NCBI GenBank assembly: GCA_900545085.1
Contig: UQXU01000055.1
Span: forward strand, 1 to 11,648
Direction of reading: 5' to 3'
Source of the DNA: an uncultured Eubacteriales bacterium
GTDB lineage: Bacteria; Bacillota; Clostridia; Christensenellales; Christensenellaceae
Length of the DNA: 11,648 nt
Part shown: piece after piece, positions 3,348-10,815 of the stretch
Layout: the number at the start of each line of letters is the position of its first letter
Position numbering within the stretch: position 1 is the first letter of the stretch
Program-made: the position numbers and the translations under genes
The notes under the pieces: model-generated
Seen by the model: only the letters and a program-made list of their open reading frames with translations
Told to the model about the DNA's origin: nothing
Databases searched by the model: none

Positions 3348-5378
3348 CTATATTACACGCATGGCTTTACAATGGGCGAGGCTTATCCGCTTCTTTCCTA
3401 AGCCTTCAAAATCTATTAATGCAATTCCATCATCTATGCTCAACACTAATCCCCGTCCAAACAGATTGTGTTCTACGCTGCTCCCCTCGCGGTATTCTTC
3501 TGTCTGGGGCTCCGACTCCCCTTCGATAGTCTTTTTCATAATCCGAAGATAGCGAGATATAGGATAAACTTTTTCTCTGCCTGTGAGAGATAATATTTCC
3601 AATTTGTTTTTGGCACGCGTTATTCCTACATAGAATATCCGTTTATCTTCTTCATTATCCGCCTCCTCTCCGGGGGCGGTTTTATTTTCCTCGGGCAGTA
3701 TACCCTCCACGACATCTACCATACAGACTCTTTCAAATTCCTGTCCTTTGGCTGAATGAATCGTAGAAAGCGTTAAATTGCTATTTTCTATGTCGCAGCC
3801 TCCGTCCTCCAGCAGCTTCTCCAATACTTCAAATCTATATTGCAGCTCATCCGGCGTCATGCCGCCTCGCGATATCTGCATTAACACATTCAGCTTTTGG
3901 CGCATGGCGTCACGTCTTCGAGCGGCTCTTTTATCTACATATGCTCCATATCCGATATCATTTATTATATAATCTAACGCTTCATCTGCTCTTTCTATAC
4001 TTTTAAGAAAATTAAATTTACGTTTGAGCGATTTTATTTTTCCGGAGTATCTTTTCTCCTTATCCAAAGCCGTCAGAGAGTCAAATACATTTCCCCCTCT
4101 GCCGACTGCTTTGCGCATTTTATCCTTCCCTATAGGCACGGACAGCTTGTAATATATGCGTGAAAATGCAGCCGTATCCGAAGCATCTTTAGCCAACCGC
4201 AAAAAACACTTTATATCGCGCGAAACCTCGTCAGTAAAATGATCTGTTTTGCTTCCTCTCACTTTAAAAGGAATGTTGTTTTTTTCCAGATAGTCTGCAA
4301 TAGGAAGTGCAGAGCTGTTATTTTTGTAAAGCACAGCGACCTCCCCGTGCCGCGCAGCTTCAGCAATATGTTCAGCCATAGAGCGAATCGTGGAAAACTC
4401 CAGAAAATCCACAGGCTCTCCCTCGCCTCTCACGGCATTCATGTGTTTATTATATCTGTTTTTACAGGTAGCAATAAAATCAGCCGCGGCGTTTGCTATA
4501 GGAGCGGTGCTTCTATAGTTATTCTGCATATAAAACAGCTCTGAGTCTGGATATATGTCTCTGAATCTGAGCAAAGCCTTGGGGTACGCCGCGCGAAACC
4601 CATATATGCTCTGGTCTTCATCTCCGACCATAAACATGCTTTTGCCTTTAGCAAGCTCAAATATCAGTCTGTGCTGCAAAAGTGACACATCCTGAGCTTC
4701 GTCTACACAGATATGGGATAGCCTGCTTCTGTAATATTCAGCTATATTCGGCTTGCTTCTGAGAATTGTCAGAGCAAATTTCAGCATATCGTCAAAGTCC
4801 ATTAGGCGATTAATTCTTTTATACTGTTCATAAGCTTTATATATTTTTAAAAAGTCAACACCGGATATGTCAATGCTCTCTTTAATCTGTTCGTCTGTCA
4901 GCATCATATTCTTAACGTATGTTATCCCTCCCGATATATCGCTTATTTCATCGTCAGAAGGAGCTTTGTCATAAAATGATTTATAGATTTCAAGAAGCGC
5001 AGGCGTCATACTCTCTATCAGCCTAAACGGTTGAGAATTGTATTTTAAAATCACGCTGCGGGCGAAAGCATGTATAGTTTTAAAAGAAAGCCCTTCGTCA
5101 ATATATCCGAACATCCGCTCATATCTGGCGGGCATGTCCTGAGCAGCTGAGACATTGTACGCTACAACTAATATACTCCTCGGATCTATTCCTAAGCATC
5201 TGACCATATATGCGGTCCTGCACATCAGCATTGTCGTTTTTCCGCTGCCCGGCACGGCGAGCACAAGAGTATTTCCATGTGTCCGAGACATAGCGCGCAT
5301 TTGATCATAATCCAGATTTATACTATATTTTCCAATAAAATCCTTAATTTGACTTTCTATTTCCACGTGTTTTTTCAT
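3348..5378 (-). CDS. UvrD/PcrA-type superfamily 1A DNA helicase with Tudor-like C-terminal tail
   Basis: This 676-residue ATP-dependent 3'-5' DNA helicase has the full SF1A motif set. A Q-motif region (LDYDQMRAM, 22-30) and Walker A (AVPGSGKTT, 41-49) are followed by motif Ib (FKTIHAFA, 99-106) and Walker B (VDEAQD, 225-230). Then come motif III (VGDEDQSIYGFR, 251-262), motif IV (NNYRST, 286-291), motif V (HSAKGQEFE, 541-549) and motif VI (FYVGITRAKN, 582-591). Residues 634-676 (VEHNLFGRGLV...IDFEGLGKKRIS) resemble the C-terminal Tudor-like domain of PcrA, which contacts RNA polymerase in PcrA. At 676 residues it is shorter than PcrA/UvrD (about 720-740), so it may be an extra paralogue rather than the essential PcrA. 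The ATG at 5378 has an AAAGGA site just upstream. A role in repair or transcription-replication conflict is inferred from the family. Confidence 0.93.
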   Translation of the reverse strand: MKKHVEIESQIKDFIGKYSINLDYDQMRAMSRTHGNTLVLAVPGSGKTTMLMCRTAYMVRCLGIDPRSILVVAYNVSAAQDMPARYERMFGYIDEGLSFKTIHAFARSVILKYNSQPFRLIESMTPALLEIYKSFYDKAPSDDEISDISGGITYVKNMMLTDEQIKESIDISGVDFLKIYKAYEQYKRINRLMDFDDMLKFALTILRSKPNIAEYYRSRLSHICVDEAQDVSLLQHRLIFELAKGKSMFMVGDEDQSIYGFRAAYPKALLRFRDIYPDSELFYMQNNYRSTAPIANAAADFIATCKNRYNKHMNAVRGEGEPVDFLEFSTIRSMAEHIAEAARHGEVAVLYKNNSSALPIADYLEKNNIPFKVRGSKTDHFTDEVSRDIKCFLRLAKDASDTAAFSRIYYKLSVPIGKDKMRKAVGRGGNVFDSLTALDKEKRYSGKIKSLKRKFNFLKSIERADEALDYIINDIGYGAYVDKRAARRRDAMRQKLNVLMQISRGGMTPDELQYRFEVLEKLLEDGGCDIENSNLTLSTIHSAKGQEFERVCMVDVVEGILPEENKTAPGEEADNEEDKRIFYVGITRAKNKLEILSLTGREKVYPISRYLRIMKKTIEGESEPQTEEYREGSSVEHNLFGRGLVLSIDDGIALIDFEGLGKKRISLAHCKAMRVI

Positions 5379-5422
5379 TAATTCCTTTTGTATGTATATT
5401 TAGTGAATTTTGCAAAAAAGGG

Positions 5423-5451
5423 TTGAATTTATTCGCCTTTTGTGGTTTAAT
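5423..5451 (+). promoter_or_regulatory. Extended -10 promoter for a candidate small RNA
   Basis: The -35 element TTGAAT (5423-5428) and the -10 element TTTAAT (5446-5451) are 17 bases apart, and the -10 is preceded by TGg (5443-5445), an extended -10 motif. It points rightward, away from the helicase and against the flanking leftward genes. The predicted start is near 5458, the first base of a stem-loop. Confidence 0.55.
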
Positions 5452-5457
5452 ATAAAT

Positions 5458-5573
5458 GTGCTTTAGAGAGCACAGAAATTTAGTTTGTACCGTTTACATG
5501 CTGACGAGTGTAGACGTGTATATATTTTCTTCCTCTGATGGAGACGCTTTTGTCGGCGTCTCCATTTTATTTT
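5458..5573 (+). ncRNA. Candidate small RNA, about 115 nt, three stem-loops
   Basis: No protein gene fits this rightward transcript, which has a promoter at 5423-5451 and an intrinsic terminator at its end. Three stem-loops can be drawn. Stem 1 pairs TGTGCT (5457-5462) with AGCACA (5469-5474) around a 6-nt loop. Stem 2 pairs CGTTTACA (5491-5498) with TGTAGACG (5509-5516), 8 bp with one G-U pair and a 10-nt loop. Stem 3 is the terminator stem (5540-5563). The unpaired linker between stems 2 and 3 holds the CU-rich CUUCCUCU (5529-5536), complementary to Shine-Dalgarno sequences, as in trans-acting small RNAs of Bacillota. It does not match any riboswitch or housekeeping RNA I know (6S, SRP, tmRNA). 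It lies in the gap between the metallopeptidase and helicase genes and would be antisense to any read-through transcript. Expression is not shown. Confidence 0.5.
5540..5572 (+). terminator. Intrinsic terminator, rightward
   Basis: A perfect 8-bp stem, GGAGACGC (5540-5547) with GCGTCTCC (5556-5563), and an 8-nt loop are followed by ATTTTATTT on the plus strand. On the minus strand the hairpin is followed by ATCAGAGG, with no U-tract, so it does not terminate the leftward operon even though it starts 11 bases after the metallopeptidase stop codon. No protein gene on the plus strand ends here, which points to a non-coding transcript. Confidence 0.75.
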
Positions 5574-5574
5574 G

Positions 5575-6243
5575 CTAATTTTCCATCCATCCTTCACTCT
5601 CAAGCATTCTGCCAAAATCGGCAAGTTCTGAGCGCAGAGCTCTATAATCCGGCATATATTGTCCAACTATCTTCCAAAATCTATCTGAATGATTCATCTC
5701 GCTCAGATGAGCCAGCTCATGTACGACAACATAATCTATCAGCTCTCCCCTCGCCATTATCAGCCGCCAGCTCAGATTTATACTGCCTTTTGAACTGCAC
5801 GAGCCCCAACGCGTACGCGCATTCGTAACTTTAACAGCAATTGGAGTCACACCCATCGCCTCTGCAAAATACTCAACTCTTTCCGAAAAAATCGACTCTG
5901 AGCTTCTTCTCATCCACATAGCGACATACGCGCGCGAATTTTCCTCCGGCAGTTTAAACTTACGACCGTCAAACTCTACGCTTTTCCCTCCGAATTTCAC
6001 GCCGTATTCTTCACCTAAAAAGAAAATCCTGGATACCGGCTTTCCCTTTTTTTCGTTTAGTTCTTTGACCTTATCGAGAGTATTAAGCACCCAGCCTTCA
6101 TGTGCAGAGACGAAACCATCTATAAACGCTGCCGGCGTTCCGTGCGGAGCGCGCACCTCAACAGTTTCGTCTCTGTTTACTTTAATCGTAATATTTCTTC
6201 TGACAGAGTATTTTATTTTATATTCGAATTGCATTTCAATCAT
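5575..6243 (-). CDS. YgjP-like (DUF45/SprT-type) zinc metallopeptidase
   Basis: This 222-residue cytoplasmic protein belongs to the YgjP/M48-like metallopeptidase family (PF01863 type). The zinc-binding motif HELAH is at residues 175-179, followed by the third candidate ligand His185 in EMNHSDRFW. Upstream is the family signature TRWGSCSSKGSINLSWRLIM (about 144-163). The N-terminal half is the beta-rich portion typical of the family, and the length is normal. The ATG at 6243 overlaps the U32 gene's stop by eight bases, indicating translational coupling. An alternative ATG at 6234 has a GGATG element six bases upstream and would remove three residues, so the exact start is uncertain. It is probably the last gene of the RNase J operon. 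Its substrate is unknown; family members are widely conserved but poorly characterised. Confidence 0.9.
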   Translation of the reverse strand: MIEMQFEYKIKYSVRRNITIKVNRDETVEVRAPHGTPAAFIDGFVSAHEGWVLNTLDKVKELNEKKGKPVSRIFFLGEEYGVKFGGKSVEFDGRKFKLPEENSRAYVAMWMRRSSESIFSERVEYFAEAMGVTPIAVKVTNARTRWGSCSSKGSINLSWRLIMARGELIDYVVVHELAHLSEMNHSDRFWKIVGQYMPDYRALRSELADFGRMLESEGWMEN

Positions 6244-7468
6244 CCAAACGCCTGAGCATATCCCCCGCCGAGAGCTTGTACGGACAATTTATATACAGCC
6301 TTTGCTGTGGATGCGGAGCGGTTATCTGATTTTCTCCTTCCATATTCACTATATCTGTTATTTTAAAGCTGCGCGCCGGCATATTAGGAGAAAGTATGTT
6401 TAACTCTTCGCCCAAGCTGAATTTATTTCTCTGCTCTATATAAATCATTCCATCAGGAGCTTCACCGTCCAGAATCAGCGCACAAAATGTGTACTTTCTG
6501 CCTCCGAGCTTTTTTTCAACATCCTGACCCGATGCACGCGGGTTTCCGTAATAAAAGCCTGTAGTAAAGCTTCGTGTGCCGGAAAGGCGCAAGTCGTCGG
6601 CCAGAGTCGGATCACACGGCTCGTCCGCCAAATATGCGTCTATCGCTTTTCTGTACGCGCTCACAACGCTCGCGACATAAAACGCAGACTTCATCCTTCC
6701 TTCTATCTTAAAAGAAATAATCCCGCTGTCCGCAAGCTCCGGTATATGATCTATCATCATCAAATCACGCGAATTTAAGATATACGTCCCGCGCTCGTCC
6801 TCCTCAATGGGAAAATACTCATGAGGGTATGCGCTTTCGTGAATAGTATACTCCCATCGGCAAGGCTGCGCACATGCGCCTTTATTTCCGCTGCGCCCTG
6901 TGAGTACACTGGAAAGCAGGCATCTGCCGGAATATGCTATGCACATCGCTCCATGTACAAACGCCTCTATTTCCATATCCTGGGGACATTCTTCTCTTAT
7001 CTGCTTAATTTCTTTAAGACTGAGCTCCCTCGCCAGCACTACGCGTTTAACGCCTTGCTCATACCAGAAACGTGCGCTTACGGCATTCGCCGTGCTGACT
7101 TGTGTACTCAAATGCACTTCGAGACCGGCTTCCCTCGCCATTAAAACCGCCGCCGGATCAGATACAATAACGGCGTCTGCTCCGGCTTCTTTCAATTTCG
7201 ACAAATGCTTCGGCAATCCGGGCAAATCAGCATTGCGCATTAATACATTAACTGTGACATAGAGCTTTTTACCCATTTTGTGCAGAAACTCAGCTGAATC
7301 TGCGAGCTGATTGTAATTAAAATTATCTGCAAAAGCACGCAGACCATAAGCTTTCCCCGCTACATAAACCGCGTCTGCGCCGAAATAAGCCGCAGTGCGC
7401 AGGCATTCCATATTGCCTGCGGGTGCAAGAAGCTCGGGAACTATTTTTTTATTTGAAACGTCGTTCAT
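6236..7468 (-). CDS. Peptidase U32 family protein (TrhP/YrrO-like, probable tRNA U34 hydroxylation)
   Basis: This protein of about 410 residues carries the U32 signature EAFVHGAMCIAYSGRCLLS and starts with PELLAPAGNMECLRTAAYFG, the typical first strand and loop. Despite the name, characterised relatives such as E. coli TrhP (YegQ) and Bacillus YrrN/YrrO act in 5-hydroxyuridine formation at tRNA position 34. Cysteines at about 176, 183, 199 and 203 (ATG numbering) cluster around the signature and could bind an iron-sulfur cluster, as in related UbiU/UbiV; that is inference. The open frame extends to a TTG at 7477, but that codon is two bases from the AGGAG site. The ATG at 7468 has AGGAG 11 bases upstream, so I prefer it. 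It follows mltG directly, an order resembling the yrrL-trmR-yrrN-yrrO region of Bacillus, but without the methyltransferase gene. A peptidase role cannot be excluded. Confidence 0.9.
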   Translation of the reverse strand: MNDVSNKKIVPELLAPAGNMECLRTAAYFGADAVYVAGKAYGLRAFADNFNYNQLADSAEFLHKMGKKLYVTVNVLMRNADLPGLPKHLSKLKEAGADAVIVSDPAAVLMAREAGLEVHLSTQVSTANAVSARFWYEQGVKRVVLARELSLKEIKQIREECPQDMEIEAFVHGAMCIAYSGRCLLSSVLTGRSGNKGACAQPCRWEYTIHESAYPHEYFPIEEDERGTYILNSRDLMMIDHIPELADSGIISFKIEGRMKSAFYVASVVSAYRKAIDAYLADEPCDPTLADDLRLSGTRSFTTGFYYGNPRASGQDVEKKLGGRKYTFCALILDGEAPDGMIYIEQRNKFSLGEELNILSPNMPARSFKITDIVNMEGENQITAPHPQQRLYINCPYKLSAGDMLRRLDD

Positions 7469-7473
7469 AATTG

Positions 7474-8682
7474 TCAATTCTCCTGTTGTGCGTCATGTTG
7501 CCGCCATAAGCTCTGATACTGAGCTTTATAGGCATTATGTTCCTCCAAAGTCTTGGAGAAATAAAGCGTACCTTGGTTCGGATCGCCCAAGCAAAAGTAC
7601 AGATATCCGTCTCTGAGCATTTCTTCATCCGGATAGAGAGCTGCCATAAGCGCATCATTGCCCGGGTTGCAAATCGGCCCCGCAGGAAGCCCGGAATTCA
7701 AATACGTATTATACGGCGAGCTAACCGCTAATTCCTCAGACGTCCATACGAGTTTATTCTCACCCATAAAGTATTGATGCGTAGCACATGATTCCAAATT
7801 CATTCCATTGTTAAGTCTATTATGGAACACCGCGGACACTTTAGTAAAATCATCTGTCTTCGCTTCACGCTCTATCATAGAAGCGAGTATTACCACATCG
7901 TCCACAGACATATTCAGCTCCGCAGCGCGTTCTGCCATCTCGTCAGTAAACTTCTTGCTGAATTCATCCAGCATATTCTGAATTATCTGCGATGGACTCG
8001 CACTGGAATATATTTCATATGTTTCGGGATAAAGGTATCCCTCCAGAAGATATTTTCTGTTTTTAACTGCATCTGCATCATCCAGTATTTCACTGATATA
8101 TACATTGCCGGAGTATTCACTTGCAGACTGCACTTCTGATAAGAAAGTCAGTTCGTTATTAAATATGCCTTTCTTCACAAGCAAAGCCGCATAGTCTTGT
8201 ATAGAAGAGCCTTCAGTAAATGTTATTTTGCTAGTAACATTTTTATTGTTGCTTTTCTTCAAAGTATCAATAATGTCATCATAAGTCATATCTGTACTTA
8301 GCTTGTAAGTCCCTGCGCGGAGCTTGGACGCCATATTAGAAAAATCAACATAATATTTAAATACAGAAGAGCTTCTTATTATACCTTCTTCCTCGAGAAT
8401 ATTTGCAATAGCAGAAAGGCTGCTGCCGCTTTCTATGACAACAACTTTTTCCTCGCCTTTTCTATCTACAGGAGAAAAATACGCATTGTAAAGATATACC
8501 CCTGCAATAGCAAATATCACAATTGATATAATCAACCCTATAGCAATTGATACTATCGGTCTTGCAATGCTATCGTTTGACTTTGCACCTCTGATAAGAG
8601 TCTTTACCCTTTCCATCCTCCCGTCTTTACGCTCGTCATTGCTTTTTTTCTTTATTACATATTTTTTCCTGCTCCCTGCCAT
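7474..8682 (-). CDS. mltG: Endolytic murein transglycosylase MltG
   Basis: This 402-residue membrane-anchored enzyme cleaves nascent glycan strands of peptidoglycan and helps set their length. A basic cytoplasmic N-terminus (residues 1-41) is followed by one transmembrane segment (about 42-66, RPIVSIAIGLIISIVIFAIA). A LysM-like stretch comes next (about 79-112, VVVIESGSSLSAIANILEEE). The YceG catalytic domain contains ASMIEREA with the catalytic Glu at 271, SAVFHNRL, and the late motif SSPYNTYLNSGLPAGPICNPG (from residue 321). All expected motifs are present and the length is normal for Clostridia. The ATG at 8682 has a GAGGAG site overlapping the end of the ylbF-like gene. It sits between that gene and the U32 gene in one operon. 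The basic tail would be intracellular and the catalytic domain extracytoplasmic. Confidence 0.95.
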   Translation of the reverse strand: MAGSRKKYVIKKKSNDERKDGRMERVKTLIRGAKSNDSIARPIVSIAIGLIISIVIFAIAGVYLYNAYFSPVDRKGEEKVVVIESGSSLSAIANILEEEGIIRSSSVFKYYVDFSNMASKLRAGTYKLSTDMTYDDIIDTLKKSNNKNVTSKITFTEGSSIQDYAALLVKKGIFNNELTFLSEVQSASEYSGNVYISEILDDADAVKNRKYLLEGYLYPETYEIYSSASPSQIIQNMLDEFSKKFTDEMAERAAELNMSVDDVVILASMIEREAKTDDFTKVSAVFHNRLNNGMNLESCATHQYFMGENKLVWTSEELAVSSPYNTYLNSGLPAGPICNPGNDALMAALYPDEEMLRDGYLYFCLGDPNQGTLYFSKTLEEHNAYKAQYQSLWRQHDAQQEN

Positions 8683-9042: not shown

Positions 9043-10815
9043 TTACACCTCTATTATTATAGGCAGTATCATCGGACTGCGCTTTGTCTTTTGATACAGC
9101 ATGCCGCTTAGTGATTTCTTTATCTTGCCTTTGATAACCACCCATTCTTTTACGTTAGAAGTCAGGCAGTCCTCTATCACCTTGCAGACCAGCTTCTTTG
9201 CGTCTATAAGCAGTTGTTCTGATTCACGCATGTATATGAATCCGCGCGAGATTATCTCCGGGCCGGATACCAACGCGGCGTCTTCACGCGAAATTGTGGC
9301 AACCACTATAAACAATCCATCCTGAGAGAGTATCTTTCTGTCTCTCAACACCACATTGCCCACGTCGCCTATTCCGAGACCGTCTATAAGAATGCTGCCC
9401 GACGGCACCTGCTCCGCTACCGCCGCGCCCTGCTTTGCGCTTAGTTCTATCGGCACGCCGATTTCCGGTATGAACACGTTCCCGGGCTTCATTCCCAAAT
9501 CTTTAGCGAGTTGAGCATGTTTGTACAAATGCCGATATTCTCCGTGTACAGGGATAAAGTACTTTGGTTTTACTAAAGACAGAATCAACTTTAATTCTTC
9601 CTGACACGCATGGCCCGACACGTGAACCTTCGCCATGCCGCCATATACGACATCTGCTCCTCTCTGGTACAGCATATCTATTACACCGGATACATACAGC
9701 TCATTTCCCGGGATAGGTGAAGACGATATAATTACTTTATCACCCTGCTTAATTTGCAGGCTGCTGTGTTCGCCTGTAGCCATTCGCACAAGGCCGCTCA
9801 TCGGCTCACCCTGGCTGCCCGTGGTGAGAATAACTACTTTATTATCTTTTACCGTGTCCACTTCTTCCATTTTAAGCTGCATCTTTTCCGGCAGTTTCAG
9901 ATAACCCAGCTCTACGGCTATTCCCGCTATTTTTACCATGCTTCGCCCGGAGAGACATATCTTTCTGTTGAAGCGCTTAGCTAAATCTACCACTTGCTGC
10001 AGCCTATGTATATTAGATGCAAAAGTAGCTATTATAAGCCTGCCGCGAGCCTCTGTAAAATACTTTTCAAACGATGCTCCTACACTTCTCTCTGAAATTG
10101 TAAAGCCCTCGCGCTCAGCATTCGTGCTGTCGGACATGAGAGCCAGAACACCTCTTTCACCCAGCCTGCCGAATTTAGCCAAATCAGTAGATTTTCCGCC
10201 GACGGGGGTATAGTCCACTTTAAAATCACCTGTATGTACCACCACTCCCTCAGGCGTATGCACAGCAAGCCCTATTGCATCATCTATGCTATGGCAAACC
10301 TGGATAAACTCTATCTGAAACACTCCGCATTGTATAGTTTCGTCAGCTTTAATGACGTTTATATTTGCGCTGACTCCATGTTCCGCCAGCTTGCTTTCTA
10401 TAAGAGCTGCCGTAAGTTTCGTTGTATATACAGGTACTGCAAAGTTTCTGAGTATATACGGCGTCGCACCTATATGATCCTCATGGCCATGCGTTATAAC
10501 AATACCTTTTATCTTGTTTCTGTTCTTTTCAAGATAAGTCGTATCGGGAATAACATAGTCAACGCCCAGCATATCGACTCTCGGAAAGCAGAACCCGCAG
10601 TCTATGACCAATATATTATCGCCCCATTCAAGCACGGTCATGTTTTTCCCGATCTCTCCTACGCCGCCGAGCGGGATTATCTTCAGCTTTTTTACGTTCT
10701 TTTGCTGAGCAGATCCGGCAGTCCTTCTGGCCTGCGCGCCTCGGCCGCGTTGTGTGTGCTTCTTTTTAGCGTTATCAGAGGCTTTGACGCCCTGCTTGTT
10801 ATTGTTGTTTTCCAA
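9043..10815 (-). CDS. rnj: Ribonuclease J with basic N-terminal extension
   Basis: This 590-residue metallo-beta-lactamase/beta-CASP ribonuclease performs 5'-exonucleolytic and endonucleolytic RNA decay in the cytoplasm. The fold starts at KLKIIPLGGVGEIGKNM (about 43-59), and the zinc motif THGHEDH is at 108-114. Other conserved blocks are HTGDFKVDYTPV, MSDSTNAEREG, ATFASNIHRLQQ, LTTGSQGEPMSGL, SSSPIPGNE, VHVSGHA and FIPVHGEYRHLY. Residues 1-42 are an extra Asn/Gln/Lys/Arg-rich, probably disordered tail absent from the ~555-residue Bacillus RNase J1. It could bind RNA or partners. The start is a TTG at 10815 with an AGAGG site six to seven bases upstream; no ATG lies near. It is the first gene of the leftward operon, behind a long structured leader. 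Whether it matches J1 or J2 cannot be decided from one copy. Confidence 0.96.
   Translation of the reverse strand: MENNNNKQGVKASDNAKKKHTQRGRGAQARRTAGSAQQKNVKKLKIIPLGGVGEIGKNMTVLEWGDNILVIDCGFCFPRVDMLGVDYVIPDTTYLEKNRNKIKGIVITHGHEDHIGATPYILRNFAVPVYTTKLTAALIESKLAEHGVSANINVIKADETIQCGVFQIEFIQVCHSIDDAIGLAVHTPEGVVVHTGDFKVDYTPVGGKSTDLAKFGRLGERGVLALMSDSTNAEREGFTISERSVGASFEKYFTEARGRLIIATFASNIHRLQQVVDLAKRFNRKICLSGRSMVKIAGIAVELGYLKLPEKMQLKMEEVDTVKDNKVVILTTGSQGEPMSGLVRMATGEHSSLQIKQGDKVIISSSPIPGNELYVSGVIDMLYQRGADVVYGGMAKVHVSGHACQEELKLILSLVKPKYFIPVHGEYRHLYKHAQLAKDLGMKPGNVFIPEIGVPIELSAKQGAAVAEQVPSGSILIDGLGIGDVGNVVLRDRKILSQDGLFIVVATISREDAALVSGPEIISRGFIYMRESEQLLIDAKKLVCKVIEDCLTSNVKEWVVIKGKIKKSLSGMLYQKTKRSPMILPIIIEV

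Follow-up and report, generated by a model that had tools for sequence, protein, structure and literature searches.

The gap between ygjP and uvrD in the window, the 11,648-nucleotide stretch of DNA analysed here, contains a candidate small RNA gene that is probably lineage-specific. We lean, with somewhat better than even confidence, towards a stand-alone gene read on the plus strand (5457-5573). A promoter-like sequence with an imperfect -10 element, itself predicted from the sequence, directly precedes it, and its 3' end is an intrinsic terminator located just before the ygjP stop codon. As the original prediction had it, the genes on both sides of the gap run opposite to the candidate, the helicase gene (3348-5378) and the ygjP-like gene (5575-6243) being encoded on the minus strand. 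The features are as follows.

3348-5378, minus: UvrD-type helicase gene (uvrD), one flank of the gap
5379-5574: ygjP-uvrD gap, with the candidate RNA unit read on the plus strand
5423-5451, plus: promoter-like site (-35 TTGAAT, 17-nt spacer, TG, -10 TTTAAT), from reading of the sequence and a matrix score
5457-5573, plus: candidate small RNA gene of about 115 nt, by fold z-score, no Rfam match
5457-5474, plus: hairpin 1, coinciding with the predicted start of the transcript (about 5458)
5482-5526, plus: hairpin 2, a long stem with the 8-nt apical loop GCTGACGA, from folding
5525-5536, plus: pyrimidine-rich linker TTTTCTTCCTCT, partly unpaired
5537-5573, plus: one-way intrinsic terminator, 12-pair stem with T-rich tail, from scan and folding
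5575-6243, minus: YgjP-like gene (ygjP), the other flank of the gap
6236-7477, minus: peptidase U32 gene
7474-8682, minus: YceG/MltG gene
9043-10815, minus: RNase J gene
minus: 116-aa frame, listed between RNase J and YceG/MltG
plus: two chromate-transporter genes

Promoter-like site and terminator

The promoter-like site is composed of TTGAAT (5423-5428), TG (5443-5444) and TTTAAT (5446-5451). Scored with a matrix that does not come from a tool, it reaches 10.2 and outscores every other site in the gap, the next on the plus strand reaching 6.6 and the best on the minus strand 5.6. Its score was matched in 18 of 500 shuffled gaps on the plus strand, and nine sites in the whole window, counting both strands and the site itself, score as high. 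The TG expected of the extended -10 promoter claimed earlier is present, together with the -35 element and the 17-nt spacer, but the -10 element lacks the usual A at its second position. Because the base found there is T, a consensus scan, which demands A, omits the site.

At the other end of the unit, the terminator stem folds into 12 pairs, 10 Watson-Crick and two G-U, in place of the 8 pairs first assigned to it. Its U-rich tail does lie on the plus strand, with none on the minus strand. Hairpin 1 can also be read as a weak minus-strand terminator (5474-5457, 6 pairs). The gap has no good promoter facing leftward, and its parts are not accounted for by such a promoter or by a strong terminator in that direction.

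The unit has a frame of 40 codons open across its whole length, from an ATG at 5456-5458 to a TAA at 5576-5578. That this frame is a small-protein gene is very improbable, given that the 20 bases ahead of the ATG hold no ribosome-binding site (by eye), that the ATG sits at or before the predicted transcript start, and that the frame runs through the terminator.

Folding of the candidate RNA

The segment 5457-5573 folds with -43.2 kcal/mol (z -6.31), and none of 200 shuffles folds as well. The MFE and centroid structures both contain hairpin 1, hairpin 2 and the terminator hairpin; the three plus-strand hairpins originally described are therefore present, yet there are three only if that of the terminator is counted. 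Hairpin 1 lies at the predicted start of transcription, as had been proposed. Without the terminator the fold z-score is -4.21 and -3.81, and -3.6, -3.3 and -3.9 in three repeats. Hairpin 1 has a z-score of -4.3 on the plus strand and -3.6 on the minus strand. Hairpin 2 (5481-5527) reaches -14.8 kcal/mol (z -3.5) on the plus strand versus -6.4 kcal/mol (z -1.4) on the minus strand, where A-C replaces its G-U pairs, so that only the plus-strand form is stable. The mean unpaired probability is 0.61 in the linker (5524-5536) and 0.79 in the loop of hairpin 2.

These strand comparisons bear on whether there is an RNA gene at all. A promoter-like site could have arisen by chance beside hairpins whose role is at the 3' end of the ygjP message transcribed leftward, or which are inverted repeats bound by a protein. 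The recurrence of the promoter-like score in 18 of 500 shuffles is in keeping with this explanation, as is the folding of hairpin 1 and the terminator hairpin on both strands, but hairpin 2 is stable and the T-tract of the terminator is found on the plus strand alone, and we consider the explanation unlikely, while giving it real weight.

Controls in related genomes

How often such parts come together by chance was assessed in three family genomes (G403, G151 and G402), using 54 stretches. A crude ORF caller, taking frames of at least 80 codons, defined 169 gaps of 100 bases or more between co-directional genes, and an antisense unit was a promoter score of at least 9 together with a terminator. 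Antisense units occurred in 2 of the 169 gaps (2 of 58 in G403, 0 of 69 in G151 and 0 of 42 in G402); five further units of promoter and terminator were in sense or in gaps of other orientation. One of the two antisense units, L108, is a tRNA-Leu(CAA) gene. The other, L110, has four A in the eight bases ahead of its terminator, one below the limit at which a terminator is taken as two-way. Antisense terminators in these gaps were one-way in four cases and two-way in 14, and of the four one-way cases only L108 contains a tRNA by ARAGORN, which made no call in L110, L119 or L128.

Among 79-nt segments preceding terminators in 42 of the 54 stretches, none of 170 had a z-score of -3.8 or lower and three had -3 or lower; for random segments from 42 of the 54 stretches the counts were 8 and 15 of 623. 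The same script gave -3.6, -3.3 and -3.9 for the 79-nt segment of the window. The z-score of the window without its terminator is thus close to the best background values and not far past them. By these controls the combination of parts is uncommon, and the unit in the window is unusual, not unique.

Search for homologues and lineage of the window

The Rfam search proposed with the original prediction gave no match to Rfam 15 at the gathering threshold anywhere in the window. Lax thresholds gave three matches within the gap, with E from 5.4 to 6.9, which are attributed to chance. The top alignment among them, to ctRNA_pT181 (RF00242), likewise pairs a hairpin with a terminator; its 18.1 bits (E 6.9) fall below the gathering score of 56, and it too was rejected as chance. 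Skipping-rope RNA (RF02924), a family of the sRNA type found in the relative G403 (L106), has no match in the window. Comparison of the gap with phage and plasmid records returned short matches only, the largest covering 24% of the query, and the letters of hairpin 2 had no match in viral contigs. When 5400-5590 was compared by blastn with the 18 family genomes, the matches listed were of 14-35 bases with a best E of 0.007, and were set aside as short chance matches.

A covariance model, R1, was built from the single window sequence given twice (self-match 148 bits). It found nothing at E<=10 in the 18 family genomes, an empty answer that says nothing without a known positive, and nothing at E<=1 in 55 helicase and YgjP loci. 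In 342 genomes of the order, a set that was drawn from a larger group, was scored under stricter filters and may overlap the family set, R1 gave nine matches in eight genomes at E<=1. The best had 28.5 bits; its E of 0.007 refers to a single genome and amounts to chance level across all 342. All nine alignments were viewed, with gene context for L158 and L160, and none was accepted; they rest largely on the terminator. L158, the 28.5-bit match, is located in the space separating two frames of the minus strand, and its alignment depends on a terminator-like hairpin that has a T-tract on either strand. L160 resembles hairpin 2 but is inside a coding frame. Hence the claim of an undescribed small RNA holds in so far as the parts are best read as an RNA gene on the plus strand and no Rfam 15 family covers it, but R1 yielded no credible homologue in the 18 family and 342 order genomes, and no genome of the same genus as the window was found among those searched.

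Across 391 genomes of the class, 396 of the order and the 18 of the family of G075, the nearest RNase J proteins found are 65-66% identical to that of the window. Given this best identity, the genus of the window is probably missing from the genomes searched; it is from RNase J that membership of the window in the family of G075 is inferred. The listing of 120 relatives of the helicase includes one that is 98% identical (P0001) and is labelled Christensenellaceae bacterium by one source, one that is 85% identical (P0002) and a 100% identical fragment with 47% cover; the rest are at most 40% identical. For YgjP, the relatives P0122 and P0123 are 86% and 68% identical. A scan for the helicase in genome contigs returned three distant loci (35-36% identity), and one in viral contigs returned no match. 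The helicase gene (3348-5378) seemingly lacks a close orthologue in the family members G075 and G151, where its best E is 6e-45 and 8e-42, versus about 1e-130 in the best class genomes, with at most three candidates scored per genome. As these two genomes seem to have no close orthologue, the helicase gene may have been acquired.

tRNA genes behind ygjP

A YgjP match is present in 17 of the 18 family genomes, and gene order at the ygjP locus is not conserved across those examined. In seven family genomes (L080-L086) a tRNA-Leu(CAA) gene lies downstream of ygjP and convergent with it. ARAGORN places it near the ygjP stop in five of them (G404, G403, G400, G399 and G402), while in G401 the distance is about 0.9 kb; in G405 it is cut by the contig end, has no ARAGORN call and was read by eye. 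Six genomes, G397, G075, G396, G395, G151 and G394, have a tRNA-Leu(UAG)-Gly-Gly-Gly-Lys cluster after ygjP that runs the same way as the gene. In the family, ygjP is often trailed by tRNA genes (L080-L087, L090-L094). No tRNA was found by the YgjP locus in the stretches examined of G407, G408, G406 and G398 or at the second G395 locus, nor at five YgjP loci of order genomes outside the 18.

It is no more than suggestive that the candidate RNA unit of the window occupies the position and orientation that tRNA-Leu(CAA) has behind ygjP. Like the tRNA unit of the relatives, most of which lie close to the ygjP stop, it is convergent with ygjP; unlike that unit, it has no tRNA sequence, no ARAGORN call and no Rfam tRNA match. 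In plus-strand local alignment with tRNA-Leu(CAA), its score was reached by 236 of 500 shuffles, and by 446 of 500 under looser scoring. One explanation is that the unit is what remains of a tRNA-Leu(CAA) gene, whose promoter and terminator were left while its body was lost or replaced. Its side, its orientation, its short distance to ygjP and its similar length are as this would predict, but similarity to the tRNA is absent, the body folds well into a shape that is not that of a tRNA, and the wider gene order differs, ygjP standing behind the U32 gene in the window and elsewhere in G403 and G402. We therefore regard a tRNA remnant as quite improbable. Still more doubtful is that, in the genus of the window, a new regulatory RNA was born or captured at this stable-RNA site, replacing the tRNA-Leu(CAA) of the relatives and perhaps reusing its promoter and terminator. 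In G403 and G402, unlike in the window, ygjP lies away from the RNase J-MltG-U32 operon, and a sigma-factor-like gene, so labelled from reading its translation, follows that operon in place of ygjP and the helicase gene (L107 in G403, L139 in G402).

Possible mode of action

Intergenic, independently transcribed small RNAs are a general kind in bacteria. The candidate resembles them in its promoter-like site, hairpins, intrinsic terminator, length of about 100 nt and genes on the other strand; it differs in that it has no family match and is known here from sequence alone. On the stand-alone reading, RNA polymerase would start near 5458 on the plus strand, as its sequence signals suggest, and would produce an RNA of about 115 nt opening with hairpin 1, transcription stopping at the one-way terminator just short of the ygjP stop codon. 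Such an RNA would most likely act by base pairing, through the exposed UUUUCUUCCUCU linker and the GCUGACGA loop, and this pairing is a guess. An earlier pairing of the linker with 11 window starts, made with no control, had given -3.3 to -12.2 kcal/mol. Against the ribosome-binding regions of nine window genes, 230 of 1000 shuffled linkers pair as well, so that targeting is a guess; with these nine starts and shuffles as control, a seed in the linker against ribosome-binding sites does no better than chance.

Any message that reads through leftward from ygjP to uvrD would, moreover, match the candidate RNA with perfect complementarity. This complementarity to the spacer, and the absence from the gap of a good promoter facing leftward, make a cis effect possible, on uvrD or on ygjP-uvrD read-through. 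In its strict form, the unit would be a cis-acting antisense element whose rightward transcription damps read-through by RNA pairing or by collision of polymerases. The unit fully overlaps the ygjP-uvrD spacer, and the best leftward promoter scores only 5.6 versus 10.2, so that uvrD may depend on read-through. Such an element, however, has no need of the hairpin structure, and both transcripts are predicted only. We judge this strict form unlikely, if worth keeping in mind.

Orphan small RNA candidates are common in bacteria, and the candidate alone therefore changes little. If real, it would add one more lineage-specific small RNA, from a little-sampled Christensenellaceae-like lineage, and the tRNA-Leu(CAA) of relatives at the same place would make it a concrete case in which to ask how new RNA genes come about at old transcription units.

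Two further sites lie elsewhere in the window. Upstream of the chromate-transporter pair lies a promoter-like site of the form TTGACA-16-TATAAT, matching the consensus at 12 of 12 positions (2101-2128). On the plus strand at 3659-3679, in the 3' portion of the helicase gene, which is convergent, and 318 bases past the chromate-transporter stop, is a terminator-like hairpin of 8 pairs with a T-tail.
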